From Lacticaseibacillus camelliae DSM 22697 = JCM 13995 (lineage in GTDB: Bacteria; Bacillota; Bacilli; Lactobacillales; Lactobacillaceae), in assembly GCF_001311195.1 (NCBI RefSeq), contig NZ_BBAJ01000015.1:1-43097 (forward strand): DNA of 43,097 bases, written 5' to 3'. The notes beneath the pieces are model-generated. The model saw only the letters and a program-made list of their open reading frames with translations. It did no database searches and was not told the origin of the DNA. The position numbers and the translations under genes are program-made. Positions 12,487 through 43,097 of this stretch are shown piece after piece (the first letter of the stretch is position 1; the number at the start of each line of letters is the position of its first letter).

Positions 12487-13368
12487 TACTGTTCTCCTTC
12501 TTCCAATAATAATTGTGCCAGCTGGTCAGTCGCAGGCGTGTGCTGCAGGGTGCGGCTGGTGACCAGCGCAATGTCAAACGTGGGCTGGCCCGGATCGGTC
12601 AGCGGAATAGTCACTAAGTGGTCGGCGGGCTGCACCGCGATTTGAGCCAGCAGCGCCACGCCGACCTTAGCCTGTACCATGTGCTTGAGCAGCGCCACGT
12701 CTTGGGTGCGGTAAACCACGCTGGCTGAATGCCGGCATTGTGGGTAAACCACTCGAAGGCTTTCGTGTGCACAAACCCTTCGGCCAGGGTGACAAAAGGC
12801 TCCGCCGCCAGTTCGGCAAAACTGAGCTGCTTTTTAATTGCTAACGGGTGGTCCGGCGACACCACTAACGTGAAAGGGACGCGCCGCAGCGGTTGCACCT
12901 TCAAGGCCGGCGCGTTGAGCGGCCCGGTGGACCCCAGCAAGGCGCCGTCGAGGTGGCCGCCGCGCAGGTCCGCCAGGAGATTTTGCGAGCCGTCCTCCAC
13001 GGTTTGCAGCTGATCGATGAGGCCGGCCTGCATCAGCGCCGGTGCAGCGTAGGAAAATAGTAGTTACCGATGATCGGCGGCAGGCCAAAGCGGATCTTAC
13101 CGCTGCGCGCCCGGGCGAGCTCGGCCTCGGCGGCGGTCAGCTCCGCGGTGATCACCTGGACATGGCCAGCCAGCTTTTCGCCGGCCGGGGTGACGGTGAT
13201 GCGAGCGTGGCTTTGGTCTCGGTCGATCAGCTGGATCCCGAAGTGGGTCTCAAGTCGTTTCAGGGCCATCGTGATGGTCGGCTGGGTCACGCCAAACTCG
13301 GCGGCCACTTGGGAGAAGTTCTTGATCTTGGTCAGGGCCTCAAAGTATTCCAGATCGCGTGTGTTCAT
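12486..13368 (-). pseudogene. mleR: LysR-type regulator of the malolactic operon (MleR-like), two frameshifts
   Basis: The ATG at 13368 has AAAGGAG upstream. The winged HTH is at residues 1-60 (NFSQVAAEFGVTQPTITMAL KRLE-type), followed by a periplasmic-binding-like effector domain. Frame breaks: T4 (plus A4, 13054-13057) should be T5 (N-Y-Y-F-S-Y-A-A-P), and near 12723 one C is missing (G-I-Q-P-S-V-V-Y-R-T). The corrected length is ~294 residues, normal for LysR. It is transcribed away from mleS and together with fumC. MleR activates malolactic genes in response to L-malate in lactic acid bacteria; the name is inferred from position. Confidence 0.85.
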
Positions 13369-13634
13369 GCTCAGCGCTCCTTTTCTCATATAACGAAAGA
13401 TTAACACAAAAAGGGGTTGGCAAAATGAAAAGGCGATGAAAGCTGGTTGTCGACGCCCTCAGCAGAAAATAGACGAAAAAGTTTTCGGCCGAACGGCGCG
13501 GCGTATCAAGTGAGCAGGCATCGGCACCGGTGAATAGCGGTCATATAATCAACTCGTATGGCTCTTGGGCTGTTTGACTATATTTTTGTTAGCCGCGTAA
13601 AGTGACTCCTGTAATCAAATAGGAGGAACACGAC
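13369..13634. promoter_or_regulatory. Divergent regulatory region between mleR and mleS
   Basis: Noncoding 266 bp expected to hold both promoters and the LysR operator. A 14-base near-palindrome, CGAAAA-AG-TTTTCG (13474-13487), is the clearest symmetric element. A TATAAT occurs at about 13545 on the plus strand but lacks a convincing -35. The mleS ribosome site AGGAGG is at 13621-13626. Confidence 0.45.
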
Positions 13635-24812: not shown

Positions 24813-25978
24813 ATGGGCTATTTGGGGACACTGGCGCTGATCCTGTTTGCCACGCTGATTTTAAGCCATTTTAGTCTACAGCTCGGGATCCCGGCGGTGA
24901 TCGGCGAGCTGCTTGCCGGCATCCTGTTTGGCCCCGCGTGCTCAACTGGATCCATCCCAGCACCATGATCAGCGAGTTCTCGGAAATCGGGGTGGTGCTG
25001 CTGATGTTCATCGCCGGCCTAGAAAGTGACCTCACGTTGCTGAAAAAGTATTTTCGGCCTGGGGTGCTGGTGGCGGTGATCGGCGTCATTGTCCCGGTCG
25101 TGACCATCTTCGTGTTTGCCGAGCTGTGGGGCTTCTCGTTTGTTGCCGCCGCTTTTCTGGGCATTACCTACGCCGCAACGTCGGTTTCGATTTCGGTGGA
25201 GGTGCTCAAGGAACTGGATGCCTTAGATAGCAAAAGCGGCGCCACAATTTTGGGCGCTGCGGTGGTCGACGACATCCTGACGGTGATCATTCTGAGCGTG
25301 GCCGTCAGCGTGTTCGGCACCGGCAACGCCAAGAGCACGGCCCCGTTGTGGCTGACGCTGCTGGAGGAAGTCGTTTACTTCGGGCTGATTTTCCTGGTGG
25401 TCAAGTGGCTGGCACCGTTTGTGATGCACCTCGCGGAGCGCCTGCTGCCCAGCTCGTCGGTGACGATTGGGTCACTGCTGTTGTGCTTGGGCATGGCCTA
25501 CCTGGCGGATTTGTTCGGCCTGTCCGCGGTCATCGGCGCCTTTTTTGCCGGGGTCGCCGTCAGCGAAACCAAGTACCGCGCCGAGGTGGACAAGGCGCTT
25601 GAGTCCATCGGGTACGCCGTATTCATTCCCGTGTTCTTTGTTTCAATCGGCATGAACATGCGCCTGGACAGCATCGGCCGGGATTTCTGGTTCATTCTCA
25701 TCATGACCGTGTTGGCGCTTTTGACCAAGTGGGTCGGCTGCGGCGCCGGGGCGAAGCTATCTGGGATGTCCTGGCACGAGGCCAATATCATTGGTGCGGG
25801 GATGGTCAGCAGGGGTGAGATGGCGCTGATTGTTGCCCAAATTGGCTTTGACGCAAATTTGCTGCACCGCGATTTTTATTCCAGCGTGATCATTGTCATC
25901 ATTTTGACCACTCTGATTGCGCCATTCATGCTGAAAGATGCTTTGAACCGTCACCGTGCACAGGAGGAAAATGCTTGA
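24813..25978 (+). pseudogene. Cation:proton antiporter (CPA2 family, NapA/KefB-like), one frameshift
   Basis: The ATG at 24813 follows AAGGAGG. The first 45 residues (MGYLGTLALILFATLILSH ... GELLAGILFGPA) lead into a break near 24938, where one G appears to be missing. The rest of ~345 residues begins LNWIHPSTMISEFSEIGVVLL and has the family core: FIAGLESDL, TYAATSVSISVEVL, VVDDILTVIILS (the DD pair that binds Na+/H+) and SRGEMALIVAQIGF. About 12 membrane segments in all. It exchanges Na+ or K+ for protons. It overlaps the HAD gene start by four bases. Confidence 0.85.
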
Positions 25979-26626
25979 AGACTCTGTTTTTTGACTTAGA
26001 CGGCACCATTGCCGATTCTCAGGAAGGAATCATCAATAGTATTCATTACATGATTCAAAAACAGCACCTGCCGCTGCTTGATGACGACACTTACCGCCAG
26101 TTCATCGGCCCGTCGCTGGGCAGTAGCCTTAACAAATACTATCCGGCGCTGTCGGCGGCCGAGGTCGACCAAACGATTCAGTATTATCACGAGTTTTACC
26201 TGGCAAAAGGCATTTTTCAACAGACGCTTTACCCCGGGATTTTGGACGCCTTGGACCGGTTGCTGCACGCGGGGTACCAGTTGAATATTGCGTCGGCGAA
26301 GCCCGAACCGATGGTGACCCAAATTGCCGAGCGCTTTGCTGAACCGCTACTTTACTGGGCTGTACGGCGCCACGATGGACGAGCGGGAGCGCTCCTCCAA
26401 AACAGCGGTACTGGAATACGCACTACAGGAAAGTGGTGCGGACCGCCAGCAGTCGTTGATGATTGGCGACCGTGACACTGATATGATCGGTGGGGCCAAC
26501 AACCACGTCAAAACGCTGGGGGTGACGTACGGCTTCGGCGATTTGGCCGAATTGCGTCAGGCCCACGCCACTGCTGTGATCGCTGCACCGGCCGAACTGC
26601 CTAGCGGGGTGGCCGCGCTTTTGTAA
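25975..26626 (+). pseudogene. HAD-superfamily hydrolase (phosphoglycolate phosphatase-like), one frameshift
   Basis: A TTG start at 25975 lies 8 bases after AGGAGG and inside the end of the antiporter gene. HAD motif I is FFDLDGTIADS, motif II NIASAKP, and motif III/IV SLMIGDRDTDMIGG in the second fragment. The break near 26339 joins RFA to LNRYFTGLYGATMDERERSS when one base is restored. The product is about 217 residues, with a helical cap typical of the Gph/PgmB group. It dephosphorylates small metabolites; the substrate is unknown. Confidence 0.82.
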
Positions 26627-35868: not shown

Positions 35869-36689
35869 TTAATTTTGTTCTTGGCTGCCGAGAAACTTAT
35901 CCAGCGCAACCGCCACGCCATCATGCGCCAGGTCGACGGTGTGGAACTTGGTGGCGGCCTTCACCTGGTCGTTGGCGTTGCCCATGGCGATGCCGTAGTG
36001 CACGGTTTTTAACATTTCCAGGTCATTGGAGCCGTCGCCGAACGCCATGGTGCGCGCCAGCGGCTGGTTGAGCTCTCGGCACACGCGCATGATTGCCGTG
36101 GCCTTGTTGACGCCGTGAGCCGTGATTTCGATGTTGTCGATATTGGAACTTGAGGCATCCACATCGGGCAGGGCGTTCATCTCGACGCGAGCGCGGGCGA
36201 TTTTTTTCCAGGTCGGGGTCGATGGCGATGGCGTTGATAATCTTGCCACTGTTTGCCCGCAGCTGTTCGAGAGTGTCGATGGCCACGTATTTGTGGGGGT
36301 CTTCGCCGGCGATGCGGTTTTTGCCGTCAGCGGAGACGGCGGCAGGCAGTGGCGTTAAGTAAAGTACTTTTTCGAGCGTGAAAAGTACTGCGGCAGTTGG
36401 TACTTCTTGGCGACTCGCCAAATCCCCTCCAGTGCATTAGTCGATAGGTGCTGGGCCTCGACCTTGCCGCCAATGCGCGTGACCGTGCCGTTGGAGCAGA
36501 TAATGTCCAGGTCCGGACCGATGCGGTCGGCCATCATGGTGGCGGAAAACAGCGGCCGGCCGGAGGCGATGAAGAAGCGGTGCCCCTGCGCGCGGTATTT
36601 GGCGATGGTCTCGACAACGCGCTTGCTGGGATACTGCTTTCGCCAACGAGCGTCCCATCGATATCCATGAAAACAGTGTAAGGTGACAT
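35869..36689 (-). pseudogene. Cof-type HAD-IIB sugar-phosphate phosphatase, three frameshifts
   Basis: The ATG at 36689-36687 begins MSPYTVFMDIDGTLVGESSI (HAD motif I DIDGT). Further marks are FFIASGRPLFS (motif II), ICSNGTVTRIGG, an IIB cap, HGVNKATAI and MAFGDGSNDLEML (motifs III and IV). About 273 residues after correction. Breaks: 36623 (A2, needs A3), 36381-36384 (T4, needs T5) and 36201-36207 (A7, needs A6), all stated for the minus strand. Family members dephosphorylate sugar phosphates, flavin or PLP precursors; the substrate is unknown. A ribosome site AAAGGAAGG precedes the ATG. Confidence 0.85.
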
Positions 36690-37084
36690 GAGTGACCTTC
36701 CTTTAACAATTGTTGTGGGTACAAATCTAAGCGGTTTCATTATACTAAAGTCCAGTGCGATTGGCGCGGTTCAAACGCAATGCCACCGGTGCGAGCCAGG
36801 AAGAATCGCGCGTGGGGCAATCGCATTCGTCCTCATTTTTTTAAAGGCAAGGCGATACCAACCACGGAAACCCTTTTTTTCACCTCGGTCTAGGTGTGCC
36901 AGCACCCTAGATTATTTTTGTGTTACAGGATGTTGTCGACGGATCCCACCAGGTAATTTAAAAACATTTGTGAGCGCATGGACAATCCGGTAGACGGGCG
37001 ATGCGGATGTGGCAGTCGACGGGAATGCTTGTTATCGATTGCTGCGCCATCAATTGTGCCACATGATATTGTGAGACATTTCGC
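36690..37084. other. Noncoding stretch of about 400 bp
   Basis: No frame here has a ribosome site or recognisable protein, and it is richer in A+T than its flanks. It holds a short T7 run near 36874 and a weak hairpin (CTAGGTG 36890-36896 with CACCCTAG 36903-36910) followed by ATTATTTTT. It separates the divergent HAD gene and flavodoxin operon, and otherwise I see nothing in it. Confidence 0.5.
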
Positions 37085-37128
37085 TTGAAAAATCACTGCT
37101 CAACATGCATTAATGAGTGAGTACTCAC
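37085..37128 (+). promoter_or_regulatory. Promoter and candidate TetR operator of the flavodoxin-activase operon
   Basis: TTGAAA (37085-37090) and CATTAA (37108-37113) are 17 bases apart. Right after the -10 is GTGAGTACTCAC (37117-37128), a perfect 12-bp palindrome in a wider symmetric context (AATGAGTGAGTACTCACATT). It covers the expected transcription start, so a bound TetR protein would block the operon. The TetR gene is the last gene of the same operon, at 41890. Confidence 0.6.
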
Positions 37129-37150
37129 ATTACATTGCCTGGAGGATAAG

Positions 37151-37596
37151 ATGACGAAAGTTAAAATCGTGTACGCAAGTTTGACTGGTAATAATGAAGC
37201 CATTGCCGACTATTTAAAAACGCAATTGGAGGCACGGGGCGCTGACGTTGACGTCGAAGAAATGAGTCAGGCGCTGGCCGACGATTTAGCCGACTATGAC
37301 GTCGCTGTGGTGGCGTCGTATACCTACTCTGGGGTGACCGATGGCGAATTGCCTGAAGAAGCATGGATTTCTACGAAGACCTAGAGGAACTCGAACTGCC
37401 GGACCTCAAGTATGCGGTGTGCGGAAGCGGTGATTCAACTTATGACCAGTTCTGCACAGCCGTCGATCTATTTACCGCAGCGTTTGAACAAACCGGGGCC
37501 AAGCAGGTCGCGTCGTCAGTCAAAATCGATCTTGAGCCCGACGCGGCAGATTTTGCCCAACTTGATCAGGTCGTCAGTGCGATTGTTGCGCTGTAG
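37151..37596 (+). pseudogene. Flavodoxin, one frameshift
   Basis: About 148 residues in the corrected frame, the size of short-chain flavodoxins. FMN phosphate loop IVYASLTGNNEAIADYL, second loop ASYTYSGVTDGELPEE, and the typical YAVCGSGDSTYDQFCTAVDLF. It breaks near 37361, where one base is missing (L-P-E-E-A-M-D-F-Y). The ATG has GGAGG 6 bases upstream. It lies 22 bases before the giant activase gene, so it is the likely electron donor to that Fe-S protein: activases of this type need a low-potential ferredoxin or flavodoxin. Confidence 0.88.
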
Positions 37597-37618
37597 TCAC
37601 GGAAAATGAGGTAGTCGA

Positions 37619-40600
37619 ATGCCAAAAGAGTCGTATGTTGCAGGGATCGACGTCGGGTCGACCACGGTCAAACTGGTCATCATGAATGCCCAGCACGAAA
37701 CGATTTTTGCGCGGTACGAGCGCCATTACTCGGACGTCAAGGCGGCCAGTGCCCGTGTGCTGAAGGAAGCAATGACCGAGCTTGACCCGCAGACGGTGGT
37801 GCAGTGCACGATCACCGGTTCCGGCGGGATTGGGCTGGCGCATTTGCTGCAGCTGAAGTTTATCCAAGAGGTCATCGCCTGCACCAAGACGGTAGAAACG
37901 TTGATCCCGGAAACCGATGTGGCCATTGAACTGGGCGGCGAAGACGCGAAAATCACGTTCTTTGGCGCCAGCTTGGAACAGCGGATGAATGGCTCATGCG
38001 CCGGCGGTACCGGTGCGTTCATTGACCAAATGGCGACGCTGCTGAAAACCGACGCCAATGTCTGAACGACATGGCCAAGGACGCGACCAAAATCTACCCG
38101 ATCGCCAGCCGCTGCGGGGTGTTTGCCAAAACCGACGTGCAGCCGCTGATCAACGACGGCGCGGCGAAGGCCGACATCGCGGCCAGCATTTTTCAGGCAG
38201 TGGTCAACCAAACCATTTCCGGGTTGGCGGCGGGCCATAAAATCCGCGGCCACGTGGCGTTTCTTGGCGGGCCGCTGTACTTCATGGACCAGCTGCGGGT
38301 GCGCTTCATTGAGACGCTGAACCTGACGCCGGACGAAGTCATTTTTCCCGCCGATCCCCAGCTGTTTGTGGCGAAAGGCGCGGCACTGTACGCCAATGAC
38401 CAACCGCAGGTCACGCTGGCGACGTTATTAGACCGCCTCGAAAATGGGGATGACTCGGCGATGAAGCCGGCGCATTCCCTGCCGCCGCTGTTTAAAGACG
38501 ACCAAGAGCTGGCGGCGTTCCGCAAGCGTCACGCCAAGGCTCAAGTGGCCACGCGTGATTTGGCCAGCTATCGCGGCACCGCGTTTCTTGGGATTGACGC
38601 GGGTTCGACGACCACCAAGGTGGCGCTGATTTCCGAAGACGACAAGCTGCTTTACACCTATTACGACTCCAATGACGGCGATCCGCTGGCGAAAACCAAG
38701 CAAATTATGCGCGATATGACCGCAAAACTCCCGGCCGGGGTCACCATTGGCAAGGTCGCCGTGACTGGGTACGGCGAGCATTTGATCAAAAACGCGTTGA
38801 ATGTGGACATCGGTGAGGTGGAAACCGTCGCCCACTACAAGGCCGCGCGGTATTTTGAGCCGGATGTCGATTTTATCCTCGACATCGGCGGTCAGGACAT
38901 GAAGGCGATGACCGTCAGTCATGAGGCTCTTTCAACGATTAAGTTGAACGAGGCCTGCTCCAGCGGCTGCGGGTCGTTTTTAGAGACTTTTGCGACGAGT
39001 TTGAACTACGACATTCGCGACTTTGCCCAGGCGGCACTGCTGGCCAAGCACCCGAGCGACCTGGGTAGTCGCTGCACGGTCTTCATGAACTCGAAGGTCA
39101 AGCAGGTGCAAAAAGAAGGCGCGACGATCGGTGACATTGCCGCCGGCCTGAGCATGTCGATTATCAAAAACGCCCTGTTTAAGGTCATTAAAATGCGGCG
39201 CGTCGAGGACATGGGGCAGCACATTGTTTGCCAAGGCGGTACTTTTTACAACGAGGCGGTGCTGCGCGCGTTTGAGCAGATCGCCGGCGTTGAGGTGGTG
39301 CGGCCGAACATTGCCGGACTGATGGGTGCGTACGGGGTGGCCCTGATTGCCCAAGAAAATTACCAGGCCGGCGATCAGACCACGATGCTGGACGTTGCCG
39401 CCATGGATGACCTCAGTTTCAACAAGGAATACATGCACTGCGGCGGCTGTGAGAACAATTGCGCGCTGACCATTACCGTGTTTAACGACGGCCGCCGGTT
39501 TGTCACCGGCAACCGGTGCGAGCGCGGCGAGGCGCGCGGCTTAAGCTGCGCGTGCCGAAGTCCAACGGTAAGGTCAACCTGGTGCAGGAAAAGTATCAGC
39601 GCCTGTTTGCGTACCGGCCGCTGCGCCGCAAGCTGGCGACTCGCGGCACGCTGGGGATGCCGCGGGTGTTGAACATGTACGAGAACTACCCGCTGTGGCA
39701 GACCTTTTTCACCAAGCTTGGCATCCGGGCGGAATTGTCGCCCAAGGGTAGCCAGAAGCAGTACGAAAAAGGCATGGAAACCATTCCCAGCGACACGGTG
39801 TGCTACCCGGCCAAGCAGGTGCATGGGCACATTCAGGCGCTGATCGATCGCGGCTGCAAGCGGATCTTCTACCCGGCCGTGGTTTACGAAGTGAACGAGG
39901 ATAAAACCGCCCAGAATCATTTTAACTGCCCGATTGTCCAGTCTTACCCGGCGGTGATCGCCAATAACGTGGACGAAATCGTGAACGGCAGTGTCGATTA
40001 CCGTTCGCCTTATTTGAACCTAGCCGATCGTAAGGGAACCGCGAAGAATCTATACGAGTGCTTCAAGGACCTCGGCGTCACCAAGGCGGAAGTTGCAGAG
40101 GCACTGGATGCAGGGTTTGCCGAACTTGAACACTTCAAACAGGTGACGCGAGACCGCGGCGAAGACACCCTGCGCATGATTCAGGAAACCGGCGAACACG
40201 GCATCGTGCTGGCAGGGCGCCCTTATCACTTGGATCCGGAAGTCAATCACGGCATTTCGCAGCTGATGACGGCCGAAGGGTTCCATGTGCTGACGGAAGA
40301 TTCGATCGCGCACCTCGGCGATGTGAAGGGTTTGCGAGTGGTCAACCAGTGGATGTACCACTCACGCCTATACGCCGCGGCGGAAATCGCGGCGAAATTC
40401 CCCCAGCTGGAGTTCGTGCAACTGAATTCCTTCGGGTGCGGCATTGATGCCATCGACAGCGATCAAATCGAAGAAATCATGACCCAGCATAACCGCCTCT
40501 ACACTTGCCTGAAAATCGATGAAGGCACTAACATGGGTGCGATTCGGATTCGTCTGCGCTCCCTGAAGGCGGCGGTGCGTGAGCGCGAAACGCGGCGCAT

Positions 40601-41881
40601 TCGCCCACAGGTGCTGGCAGAAGCACCGGCGCCGGTCAACTACACCCCGCAGATGCAACAGCAGGGCTACACGCTGCTGCTGCCGATGATGTCACCGATT
40701 CATCAGCAGGGGCTGGTGGATGTCGCCTTGCAGGCGTCAGGCTACAACGTGGTGAACCTGCCTGCAGATGACCGTGCCGCCGTTGACGTCGGCCAGCGCT
40801 TCGTCAACAACGATGCCTGCTATCCGGCCATCATTTCGATTGGGCAAATGCTGGAGGCGCTGCAAAGCGGTAAGTATGACCTGAACAAAACTGCCGTGAT
40901 GATGACGCAAACCGGCGGCGGGTGTCGCGCGACGAACTACATTCCGCTGATTCGCAAGGCGCTGGCGGACGCCGGCTTCCCGCAAATTCCGGTGGTGTCA
41001 CTGTCGCTGGGCAACCAAGGGGTCGAAGAAACTCCAGGCTTCAGCTTCACTCTGCACTGCTGAAACGGGTGGCGATTGCCTTTTTGTACGGGGACCTGTT
41101 TGAGCGCGTGGTGTACCGCACGCGGCCGTATGAAAAAGTGCCTGGAACGATCGACCACATGCACGCCGGCTGGCTGAAGCTGGTGCGGCCGTCGATCGAA
41201 GCGGGGAATTTCAAGGCGTTCAAGCACAACGTGGCCGAAATCGTGCGTGATTTTGACACCGTGCCGCTCAAGGCAGGGCGTAAGCCGCGCGTGGGGGTTG
41301 TCGGCGAGATTCTGGTCAAGTACTCGCCCATCGCGAATAACGACGTGGTCCACCTGCTGGAACGTGAAGGCGCGGAAGTCGTCGTGCCGGACATCGTCGG
41401 TTTCATGAATTACTCGCTGTACAACCAGCTGTACCGTTATGATCACCTGGGGGCCAGCGCAAAAGCAAAATGGTTCGCCAAGTTTGCCATGCAGCTGATC
41501 GACTGGTGCGAAAAGCCGCTGCAGCAGGCCTTGACCGCCTCTGAACGGTTTGACGGCATCGAGGCCATTGATGCCATCGCCGATGACGCTAGCAAGGTGC
41601 TCAGTCTGGGCAACCAAACGGGTGAAGGGTGGTTCCTGACTGGCGAGATGATCGAGCTGCTCAAGCACGGCACGCCCAACATTATCTGTATGCAGCCGTT
41701 TGGGTGCCTGCCGAACCACGTGGTCGGCAAGGGCATGGTCAAGGAGCTGCGGCGCCGTTTTCCTGGCGCCAACATTGCCCCGATCGATTACGATCCTGGC
41801 ACCAGCGTTGTGAACCAGCTCAACCGCATCCGCCTCATGCTGGCCACTGCCAAGAAGCAGGCGCTGGCTCAGGCGCAGTAG
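37619..41881 (+). pseudogene. Two-domain acyl-CoA dehydratase activase fused to a 2-hydroxyacyl-CoA dehydratase-like region, three frameshifts
   Basis: Corrected length about 1421 residues. Activase 1: GIDVGSTTVK at ~9, ELGGEDAK at ~104, cluster cysteines Cys127 (SCAGGTGAF) and Cys166 (ASRCGVF). Activase 2: [10 protein letters not shown] at ~325, [10 protein letters not shown], Cys447 ([11 protein letters not shown]) and Cys486 (GSRCTVF), the same 39-residue spacing. Next come a Cys cluster [10 protein letters not shown] (~610), a DUF2229 region from [16 protein letters not shown] (~680), and an HgdB/D-like part with NNDACYPAII, TGGGCRATNY and QPFGCLPNHV. Breaks near 38061, 39538 and 41052 are each one missing base. 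Known activases use ATP to push an electron to a dehydratase cluster; here donor and acceptor appear fused. The substrate is unknown. Confidence 0.85.
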
Positions 41882-41889
41882 GAGGAATC

Positions 41890-42543
41890 ATGACAGAACA
41901 AGAAATCGTGGCCCCGTGCAGCGTTGCGAGTACTGTTGGCGAGTTATCGGCAAAACAGCAGGCAGTGCTTCAGGCCAGCCTCACCTTGTTTGCCCAAAAG
42001 GGGTTTGCCAACACCACGACCTTAGACATTGCGCGCGCCGCGCATGTTGCCGAAGGCACGGTCCTGAAACGGTTCAAGACGAAGGAAGGCATTCTGCGAG
42101 TGATTCTGACGCCGCTGGAAGCGCAGATTTTGCCACAGGCGACCGATGCGTTTTTGACGGATCTCGCGACACACACCGAGTTATCGTTTGCCGAGTTGCT
42201 CTCCTACGCCGTGGCAAACCGCCTGAGCTTTGCGATGGCAAACCGTGAGGCGCTGCGGGTGATGGGGCAGGAAATCAGCAAGCACCCGGAAATTCTCACG
42301 CGGCTGACGGCACGGTTGCAGGATCTGATCGAGCAGCGCCTGGATGCGATCCTGAATCATTTTCGCCAGAGCGGCGAGTTGAACGATTGGCCGACGATGC
42401 GGATCGTGCGCAGCGTCTCCGGTCTGGCGCTGGGCTATGTCATGCCGAATATCATGCTGTCTGAGGAGTCACTGGATGTGGAGCAAACCACGGCAGAAAT
42501 TGTTGCGACGCTACTGCCGGCATTCACCGGCGGCCAGGCGTAA
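41890..42543 (+). CDS. TetR-family regulator of the flavodoxin-activase operon
   Basis: 217 residues, AGGAGG directly upstream and 8 bases after the activase stop. TetR HTH: AVLQASLTLFAQKGFANTTTLDIARAAHVAEGTVLKRFKTKEGIL at residues ~20-65. The C-terminal ligand domain is helical (LSFAELLSYAVANRLSFAMANREALRVMGQE) and ends LLPAFTGGQA. As last gene of the operon it probably represses its own transcription through the palindrome at 37117, releasing it when a small ligand, perhaps the substrate of the large enzyme, binds. The ligand is unknown. Confidence 0.9.
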   Translation: MTEQEIVAPCSVASTVGELSAKQQAVLQASLTLFAQKGFANTTTLDIARAAHVAEGTVLKRFKTKEGILRVILTPLEAQILPQATDAFLTDLATHTELSFAELLSYAVANRLSFAMANREALRVMGQEISKHPEILTRLTARLQDLIEQRLDAILNHFRQSGELNDWPTMRIVRSVSGLALGYVMPNIMLSEESLDVEQTTAEIVATLLPAFTGGQA

Positions 42544-42599
42544 CCGTAGACAAAAAAATCTCGCGCCGTTTGGATGCGGCTGCGATAATCCCTTTGTGG

Positions 42600-42632
42600 T
42601 TGTCAGATGAAATATCATAATTCATCTGACAA
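42600..42632. repeat. Perfect 12-bp inverted repeat before the IS gene
   Basis: TTGTCAGATGAA (42600-42611) pairs with TTCATCTGACAA (42621-42632) over a nine-base loop. It lies 18 bases before the transposase start and near the expected left end of the IS, so it may be part of the terminal repeat or a hairpin limiting transcription into the element. Confidence 0.6.
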
Positions 42633-42650
42633 TCATGGAGGGATATTTGT

Positions 42651-43097
42651 ATGCCTAGATCAAGGTACACAGCAGAGGAGAAGTTAGCTCTTCTGGAGGA
42701 ATTCAGACAGTCAGGTCTTGGAGCCACGACATTTGAGCGTCAACACAGTCTGGGTCATTGTCTGCTAGCTCGATGGCAGAAGCGATATGAGCGTGATGGT
42801 CTTGAAGGCCTCAGTGAAGCTAGGAAGAATAAGCACTATACATCATCGCTCAAACTGGCAGCGGTGTTGGCTTATCAAGCTGGTGAAGGTACGTTGACTG
42901 AACTGACCATGCGTTTCGGTCTTCGCTCGTCGGCACAACTCCGCAGATGGCTTTCCAAGTATAATGAGGACAAGACTTTGACGGCATCGCCGTTCAGAAA
43001 GCAGGTCCCCACTATGAGTCGGAAAACAACATTCGAAGAGCGAATTGAAGTGGTCAGTATGTGACTAAGTATAAGCACTCCTACAGCGAAGCTGCGG
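42651..43097 (+). CDS. IS3-family transposase OrfA (partial, probable frameshift)
   Basis: The ATG at 42651 follows GGAGGGA. OrfA of the IS150 group with repeated helix-turn-helix units: first around YTAEEKLALLEEFRQSGLGA ... LLARWQKRYERDG, second around SSLKLAAVLAYQAGEGTLTE ... AQLRRWLSKYNEDK, and a third beginning TFEERIEVV. A TGA at 43062-43064 stops the frame, but one base restored near 43049 continues it as Q-Y-V-T-K-Y-K-H-S-Y-S-E-A-A to the window edge. OrfA binds the terminal repeats and makes the OrfAB transposase by frameshifting with OrfB, which is outside the window. Confidence 0.85.

Follow-up and report, generated by a model that had tools for sequence, protein, structure and literature searches.

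A candidate one-chain, ATP-driven electron pump with two activase domains and a duplicated dehydratase-like body in Lacticaseibacillus camelliae

We analysed a 43,097-nt stretch of Lacticaseibacillus camelliae DNA (contig NZ_BBAJ01000015.1; hereafter the window, whose numbering is used throughout), taken from a draft genome of 161 contigs that is 84.5% complete. At 37151-42543 on the plus strand it carries an operon of three genes, encoding a flavodoxin, a large protein with two activase domains and a TetR-family regulator, in the order and with the gaps of 22 and 8 bases given in a first-pass annotation made from the sequence. Our analysis indicates, with moderate confidence, that the large protein is an ATP-driven electron pump, fed by flavodoxin, which carries its own catalytic body, a dehydratase or a reductase, in the same chain. 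The architecture of the protein is well supported. The direct observations are its domains, the predicted folds of activase 2 and of the first catalytic half, the repeat signal in the second half and the conserved cysteines, together with the association of TetR with an operator, the spread of the family and its statistical association with genes for iron-sulfur assembly and with additional flavodoxins; the cluster types, electron path, use of ATP, substrate class and repression we infer.

Residue numbers refer to L007, an intact Lacticaseibacillus daqingensis protein that served as the reference homologue. Pfam matches in the operon are to flavodoxin, to BcrAD_BadFG twice, to DUF2229 and to TetR_N, which bears out the earlier description of two activase domains and DUF2229 with a flavodoxin in front. 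The activator profile TIGR00241 (cut-off 125.4 bits) scores 247.7 bits over two stretches of L007 and 173.2 bits in the window piece 38071-39672. The hallmark of HgdC-type activases is a pair of conserved cysteines per domain that bridges a [4Fe-4S] cluster; such a pair is present in both domains (C126/C165 and C446/C485), and these cysteines would be the cluster ligands. A model of L007 residues 1-600, built from 62 homologues, holds both activases together (predicted local distance difference test score, pLDDT, 84.5; predicted template modelling score, pTM, 0.66). In this model activase 2 resembles the C. difficile activator 4ehu (Z 28.4), HgdC 1hux (Z 27.6) and the DCCP reductase 7yyl (Z 24.1), with the best row outside the activator family at Z 19.6, and the general fold of activase 1 is the same, the two domains being 26% identical to each other. 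The structure prediction that had been proposed as a check, carried out on the intact homologue, yields an HgdC-like activase pair and, as described below, a HadC/DCCP-like fold for DUF2229. The HgdC and HadI activators (1hux, 4eht/4ehu; TIGR00241) have the profile, the fold and the two conserved cysteines per domain in common with this protein; whereas they are homodimers, two unlike copies are here placed in one chain and fused to the presumed electron acceptor.

Downstream of the activases, DUF2229 (PF09989) is matched in the window at 282.1 bits against a cut-off of 29.4. For a model of residues 589-1421 (pLDDT 79.2, pTM 0.75) the ten best PDB entries are HadBC, DCCP, BzdNO and MbdON, with Z 11.6-14.1 over 273-283 residues, and the next entry has Z 8.8. 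These matches fall on residues 643-993, that is, on half 1, whose best score is Z 14.1 to 3o3n_B; the comparison aligned one place per chain and therefore covers half 1 alone. Foldseek, run with the whole C-terminal model, ranked the same families first. According to these models, DUF2229 is a member of the fold family of 2-hydroxyacyl-CoA dehydratase (HAD) and benzoyl-CoA reductase. Half 2, which we take to be COG3581-like, aligns with half 1 in hhalign (E 8.5e-5, probability 60%, 74 columns), C728 being aligned with C1067. At E ≤0.1, DUF2229 matches all 19 half-2 sequences (best 1.5e-8) and HGD-D matches 12 of the 19 (best 6e-5). At the sequence level, half 2 resembles a second, diverged copy of half 1. 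The HadBC, BzdNO and MbdON dimers (3o3n, 8s02, 9gai) have in common with the protein the half-1 fold, three conserved cysteines per half and the pairing of two related halves; they differ in that identity in the structural alignments is 7-11%, that both halves here lie in one chain and that the HGD-D score stays below its cut-off. In addition, if the second cysteines are equivalent, L007 has V773 and T1105 at the places where BzdO has His131 (Cys128+3). DCCP and its reductase (6eno, 7yyl, 7yzm) likewise provide the half-1 fold and the activase fold, but the conserved cysteines of our protein are too few for an [8Fe-9S] cluster.

Sixteen cysteines are retained in all 73 close homologues (near-identical ones counted) and in all 18 homologues at 53-66% identity, in which C87 and C537 drift. 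The latter set consists of 18 of 30 distant loci, on the plus strand, and includes one (L087) from the same order as the window. A set of 13 fused or split homologues that spans Bacillota, Actinomycetota and Fusobacteriota keeps 15 of the 16 cysteines throughout and loses C1357 once; two of the 13 (L155 and L157) come from genomes already within the 18-locus set. The conserved cysteines fall into groups: 126/165 in activase 1, 446/450/485 in activase 2, 728/770/940 in half 1, and 1067/1102/1363, usually with 1357, in half 2. A further group, 607/610/614/633, forms a CX2CX3CX18C module that was absent from the first-pass annotation and whose four residues are cysteine in 73/73, 18/18 and 13/13 homologues. 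We know of no characterised HAD or class I reductase with such a module. According to PMC11971306, the catalytic cubane of BzdO and HadB is held by three cysteines and a water or hydroxide, six irons of the double cubane have cysteine ligands, and the BzdO cysteines 95, 128 and 380 are spaced 33/252. The spacing of half 2, 35/261, is near this. Because of the cysteine groups and the three-cysteine ligation in BzdO and HadB, about four cubanes and no double cubane would be expected per chain.

In the mechanism that we propose, the two activases would stand in, within one molecule, for the HgdC homodimer, each contributing two cysteines that hold a [4Fe-4S] cluster between the domains. This shared cluster would be loaded by reduced flavodoxin or ferredoxin, possibly by way of the CX2CX3CX18C module, and ATP hydrolysis would send one electron of very low potential into a pseudo-heterodimer of the two HAD-like halves, each of which would bind one cubane through three cysteines. 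The result would be a radical reaction in which a small substrate is dehydrated or reduced; the likeliest candidate is a thioester such as an (R)-2-hydroxyacyl-CoA or an enoyl-CoA. TetR would act as a repressor on a GTGAGTACTCAC-type operator, and the presence of its ligand would switch the operon on. An ATP-driven strong reductant within one polypeptide, as suggested in the first-pass annotation, is a plausible mechanism: a single chain holds all of the parts, the cysteines predicted to bind clusters are conserved, and the chemistry is what these parts suggest. Compared with characterised systems, the one-chain form, the unlike activases, the added cluster module and the duplicated body make the protein a variant of the HAD/benzoyl-CoA reductase kind.

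Several points weigh against a one-chain pump with its own catalytic body. The cysteine spacing of half 1 (42/170) is unlike that of BzdO, which lowered our confidence. The Foldseek scores are modest (best E 1.8e-4, with root-mean-square deviations of 8.6-14.5 for four family hits), and comparing the profile of either half with a DCCP alignment gave no significant match (E 0.49 and 0.021). The HgdB/D-like region previously reported stands as far as the fold of its DUF2229 part goes, whereas the Pfam HGD-D profile (PF06050) stays below its curated cut-off (15.4 versus 28.4 bits). The models were fed by shallow alignments, with 64-87% identity to the query, and pLDDT drops below 50 at residues 126-128, 445-449, 940-942, 1099-1102 and 1361-1363, several of them proposed cluster cysteines. 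No genes of a CoA-transferase or 2-hydroxyacid pathway were recognised beside the gene, most neighbours being seen as reading frames only, and the statistics for SUF and flavodoxin given below carry no tree correction. The biochemistry of the large protein is, in all, predicted from sequence and models.

The family is common. A scan of named genomes found 383 encoding relatives, and the best 80 of these were kept; full frames of 1410-1490 residues were used from 73 of them, one more (L017) has a full frame and stands outside the 73-sequence alignment, and six loci have none. Within the order of the window, which its named relatives point to as Lactobacillales, the N-terminal half finds a match in 68 of 198 genomes, and 63 of these 68 have a frame of at least 1411 residues, the other five being G453, G462, G474, G532 and G000, the source genome. 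In a sample of the phylum, 97 near full-length rows were counted by eye in 91 of 398 genomes; the raw count, 259/398, takes in ordinary activases near E 1e-50, with at most two candidates scored per genome. In 15 further genomes of this sample the protein is split, its last ~425 residues being encoded by a second gene next to the first; four of the split pairs, plus one from Fusobacterium, were looked at individually. Two near full-length fused copies are present in each of six genomes (G181, G206, G255, G293, G367 and G377), which might mean two substrates or conditions.

Neither the fusion nor the family is new to databases. RefSeq names the fused protein of Listeria and Collinsella 2-hydroxyacyl-CoA dehydratase; these proteins of 1475 and 1593 residues (WP_014600632.1 and WP_271761619.1) are family members, 50-52% identical and with the same cysteines. 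The Fusobacterium pair WP_017144905.1 and WP_220297753.1 (46% and 39% identical) belongs to the same family and has the same cysteines, in two genes rather than one. A reading of the arrangement as peculiar to this operon or bacterium is not supported: it is widespread and already annotated. A search of the open-licence literature found no functional paper on the fused protein. Dependence on separate HgdAB subunits was rejected, as HGD-D finds nothing in 59 of the order's 68 genomes that carry the gene; the pattern named as contrary evidence in the first-pass annotation, homologues always next to separate HgdAB genes, is not what is seen. Its statement that separate HgdAB-like genes are missing agrees with the source genome, in which HGD-D has 0 matches (at 84.5% completeness). 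A second BcrAD_BadFG match in that genome (G000:C38:12523-12981, L002; 68.6 bits, over the cut-off) lies in a 187-residue frame that may encode a sugar kinase-like relative or another activase. Two published expression results concern proteins that may belong to the fused family: S. mutans SMU_0438c, an '(R)-2-hydroxyglutaryl-CoA dehydratase activator-related protein', is 2.2-fold up in manganese-depleted medium (PMC6952196), and for L. oligofermentans LACOL_0137, a 'CoA-substrate-specific enzyme activase', PMC4972977 gives a Rex-like site and lists higher expression on glucose.

The flavodoxin proved to be a loose companion of the large gene. A flavodoxin gene adjoins it in 4 of 81 loci, the window and three from Lacticaseibacillus (3/80 related loci), a few of the related loci having short upstream flanks. 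This neighbourhood survey does not uphold flavodoxin as part of the arrangement, and we rejected it as a fixed neighbour and kept it as a genome-level association. No gene named flavodoxin was found in the Listeria, Collinsella and Fusobacterium stretches, the plasmid gene tables being incomplete; in the Listeria stretch an FMN-dependent NADH-azoreductase gene lies two genes away from the fused gene. At the level of genomes, at least two PF00258 matches were counted in 57 of the 68 gene-bearing and 31 of 130 other genomes (stratified by family, odds ratio 5.9, p 2e-4), and SUF is present in 68/68 versus 112/130 genomes of the order (Fisher p 4e-4). SUF is present in the source genome, along with two other PF00258 proteins; the four PF00258 matches there were counted as three, two of them being pieces of one gene. 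Pyruvate:ferredoxin oxidoreductase was rejected as a local electron source, the source genome (84.5% complete) having no POR match.

The regulator and its proposed operator are associated in part of the family. The exact sequence GTRAGYRSTYAC occurs once in the window, at 37117, and three sites have at most one mismatch. Of 16 loci that have a related TetR, 13 carry it within the 700 bases upstream, or 14 if one mismatch is allowed; L011 was not located by start-finding in this count of 16, yet it carries the palindrome. The palindrome of L007 has one mismatch, and in L010 and L014 TetR is preceded by a variant. Both flavodoxin loci that lack TetR also have GTRAGYRSTYAC upstream (2/2), while it is upstream in none of 37 Enterococcus loci and none of 23 other lactobacillus loci (two of the 23 with one mismatch). 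Since the motif was derived from the TetR and flavodoxin loci that carry it, the Enterococcus and other-lactobacillus groups provide the only independent counts. A related TetR adjoins the gene in 16 of 80 related loci, with a seventeenth, in L007, some kilobases off. Among 16 upstream frames scanned at distant loci, which were picked mostly by size from 28 found in 30 such loci, nine encode a TetR_N protein, and in Collinsella a TetR gene lies 11 bases ahead of the gene. Many of the loci L047-L086, mostly from Enterococcus, have in place of TetR a downstream frame starting '...PVYIQIHDQ', which presumably resembles GntR regulators. The single promoter proposed for the operon was not recovered: a consensus scan of 36900-37700 finds two promoter-like sites, both on the minus strand (shuffles 1.0).

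The chief rival to the one-chain pump is a reductive activator or repair system, in which the HAD-like halves would be a docking or relay body and the electron would pass to a partner redox protein; it holds this place because no pathway gene was seen recurring beside the gene, and we consider it unlikely. It would account for TetR being the sole recurring neighbour seen, with no recurring metabolic neighbour recognised, and for half 2 occurring as a separate gene. Against it, each half has three conserved cysteines, which resemble the sites of open catalytic cubanes and in half 2 are spaced much as in BzdO, and the neighbourhood shows no recurring partner gene either.

Whatever the family does, the window copy could be a decaying pseudogene, which we judge distinctly unlikely. 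By tblastn, L007 residues 8-1419 are recovered from the window as four pieces in three frames at 76-86% identity, so that homology covers the ~1421-residue protein announced earlier and no single frame of that length exists. The large gene is broken three times and the flavodoxin gene, recovered in two pieces, once; NF005587 (cut-off 138 bits) scores 66.5 and 76.0 bits on the broken flavodoxin pieces and 165.9 bits on the intact flavodoxin neighbouring the gene of L007. Decay would also fit the absence of the gene from G490, the sole genome of the same genus searched, and the six of 80 related loci that likewise lack a full frame (one of them, L060, being a 4-kb contig). However, the identity is kept across nearly the whole protein, TetR is intact, and two unrelated genes of the window switch frame too, near 13043 (12722-13377) and near 26338 (25975-26620). 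Because of these switches and the intact TetR, the breaks in the operon are likely to stem from base-calling or assembly errors. A third broken-looking gene, hydrolase-like in the list of reading frames, lies at 35869-36740 on the minus strand.

The protein could also be an ordinary (R)-2-hydroxyacyl-CoA dehydratase that serves amino-acid fermentation and is simply fused, which would explain the RefSeq product name, the fold and the cysteine pattern. This explanation is improbable: no pathway genes were recognised in ten extended loci (seen as reading frames only), three annotated loci have none save one 3-hydroxyacyl-CoA dehydrogenase, and the HGD-D score is below its cut-off. Moreover, we know of no dehydratase with two unlike activases or an extra four-cysteine module per chain. 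A DCCP fused to its own reductase, to which the DCCP chains among the best half-1 folds (Z 13.8) and the shared idea of ATP-dependent reduction point, is very improbable, and as a double-cubane reading it is disfavoured, given that the double cubane takes six cysteine ligands (PMC11971306) where three are strictly conserved per half, and that NF040772 has no match in L007 at E 0.01. Both the double-cubane enzyme and the plain amino-acid dehydratase fit less well than the one-chain pump with its own catalytic body.

Enzymes that use ATP to reach extreme electron potentials are few, multi-protein and described mainly from anaerobes. It is possible, though we advance it tentatively, that the operon encodes a self-contained strong-reduction machine that combines flavodoxin electrons, two built-in ATPases, an extra relay and a duplicated body for an undescribed reaction, and is TetR-switched in part of the roughly one third of the order's genomes that have it. 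To our knowledge, no ATP-boosted radical reductase or dehydratase has yet been described in lactic acid bacteria, and this would be the first. If true, it would offer a form of such enzymes that consists of one chain, occurs in food-related lactic acid bacteria, retains its predicted cluster cysteines in three phyla and is handy to express and study, and it would reveal an undescribed reaction open to 68 of the 198 sampled genomes of the order. TetR and its operator would give a direct route to the inducing metabolite, and hence to the pathway. The positions of the features are collected in Table 1.

Table 1. Features of the operon and of the large protein, in window coordinates
Feature	Position	Strand	Remarks
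Perfect palindrome GTGAGTACTCAC, proposed TetR operator	37117..37128		Motif scan
Short-chain flavodoxin gene	37151..37596	+	Profile and tblastn; one frame break near 37360
Double-activase/DUF2229/HAD-like gene	37619..41881	+	~1420 residues if intact; frame changes near 38060, 39540-39564 and 41055 (tblastn with L007)
Activase domain 1, ASKHA fold	37643..38394	+	Predicted cluster cysteines L007 C126, C165
Activase domain 2, canonical HgdC-like	38587..39351	+	Predicted cluster cysteines L007 C446 (or C450), C485
CX2CX3CX18C module between activase and catalytic halves	39439..39519	+	L007 C607, C610, C614, C633; proposed extra [4Fe-4S] relay
Catalytic half 1, DUF2229, HadC/DCCP-like fold	39546..40598	+	L007 C728, C770, C940; coordinates converted from L007 643-993
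Catalytic half 2, apparent diverged repeat of half 1	40617..41878	+	L007 C1067, C1102, C1363; separate gene in some relatives
TetR-family regulator gene	41890..42543	+	Frame intact; Pfam TetR_N

A plasmid origin of the operon was rejected, as no plasmid record covers the operon DNA and its GC content equals that of the window. Past the end of the operon, 70 bases (42579-42648) match a Lactiplantibacillus plantarum plasmid at 94% identity, and a frame with a transposase-type helix-turn-helix (HTH_28/HTH_Tnp_1) follows at 42651-43064. Elsewhere in the family, the Collinsella gene (L162, 2101-8982) has TetR on one side and, 419 bases downstream, a 3-hydroxyacyl-CoA dehydrogenase gene on the other; among the neighbours seen, nothing else hints at acyl-CoA chemistry. 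In two distant genomes (L156, 5378-9646, and L159, 5480-9748) the gene follows frames that resemble LepA and HemW, and a heme or anaerobic link is possible.

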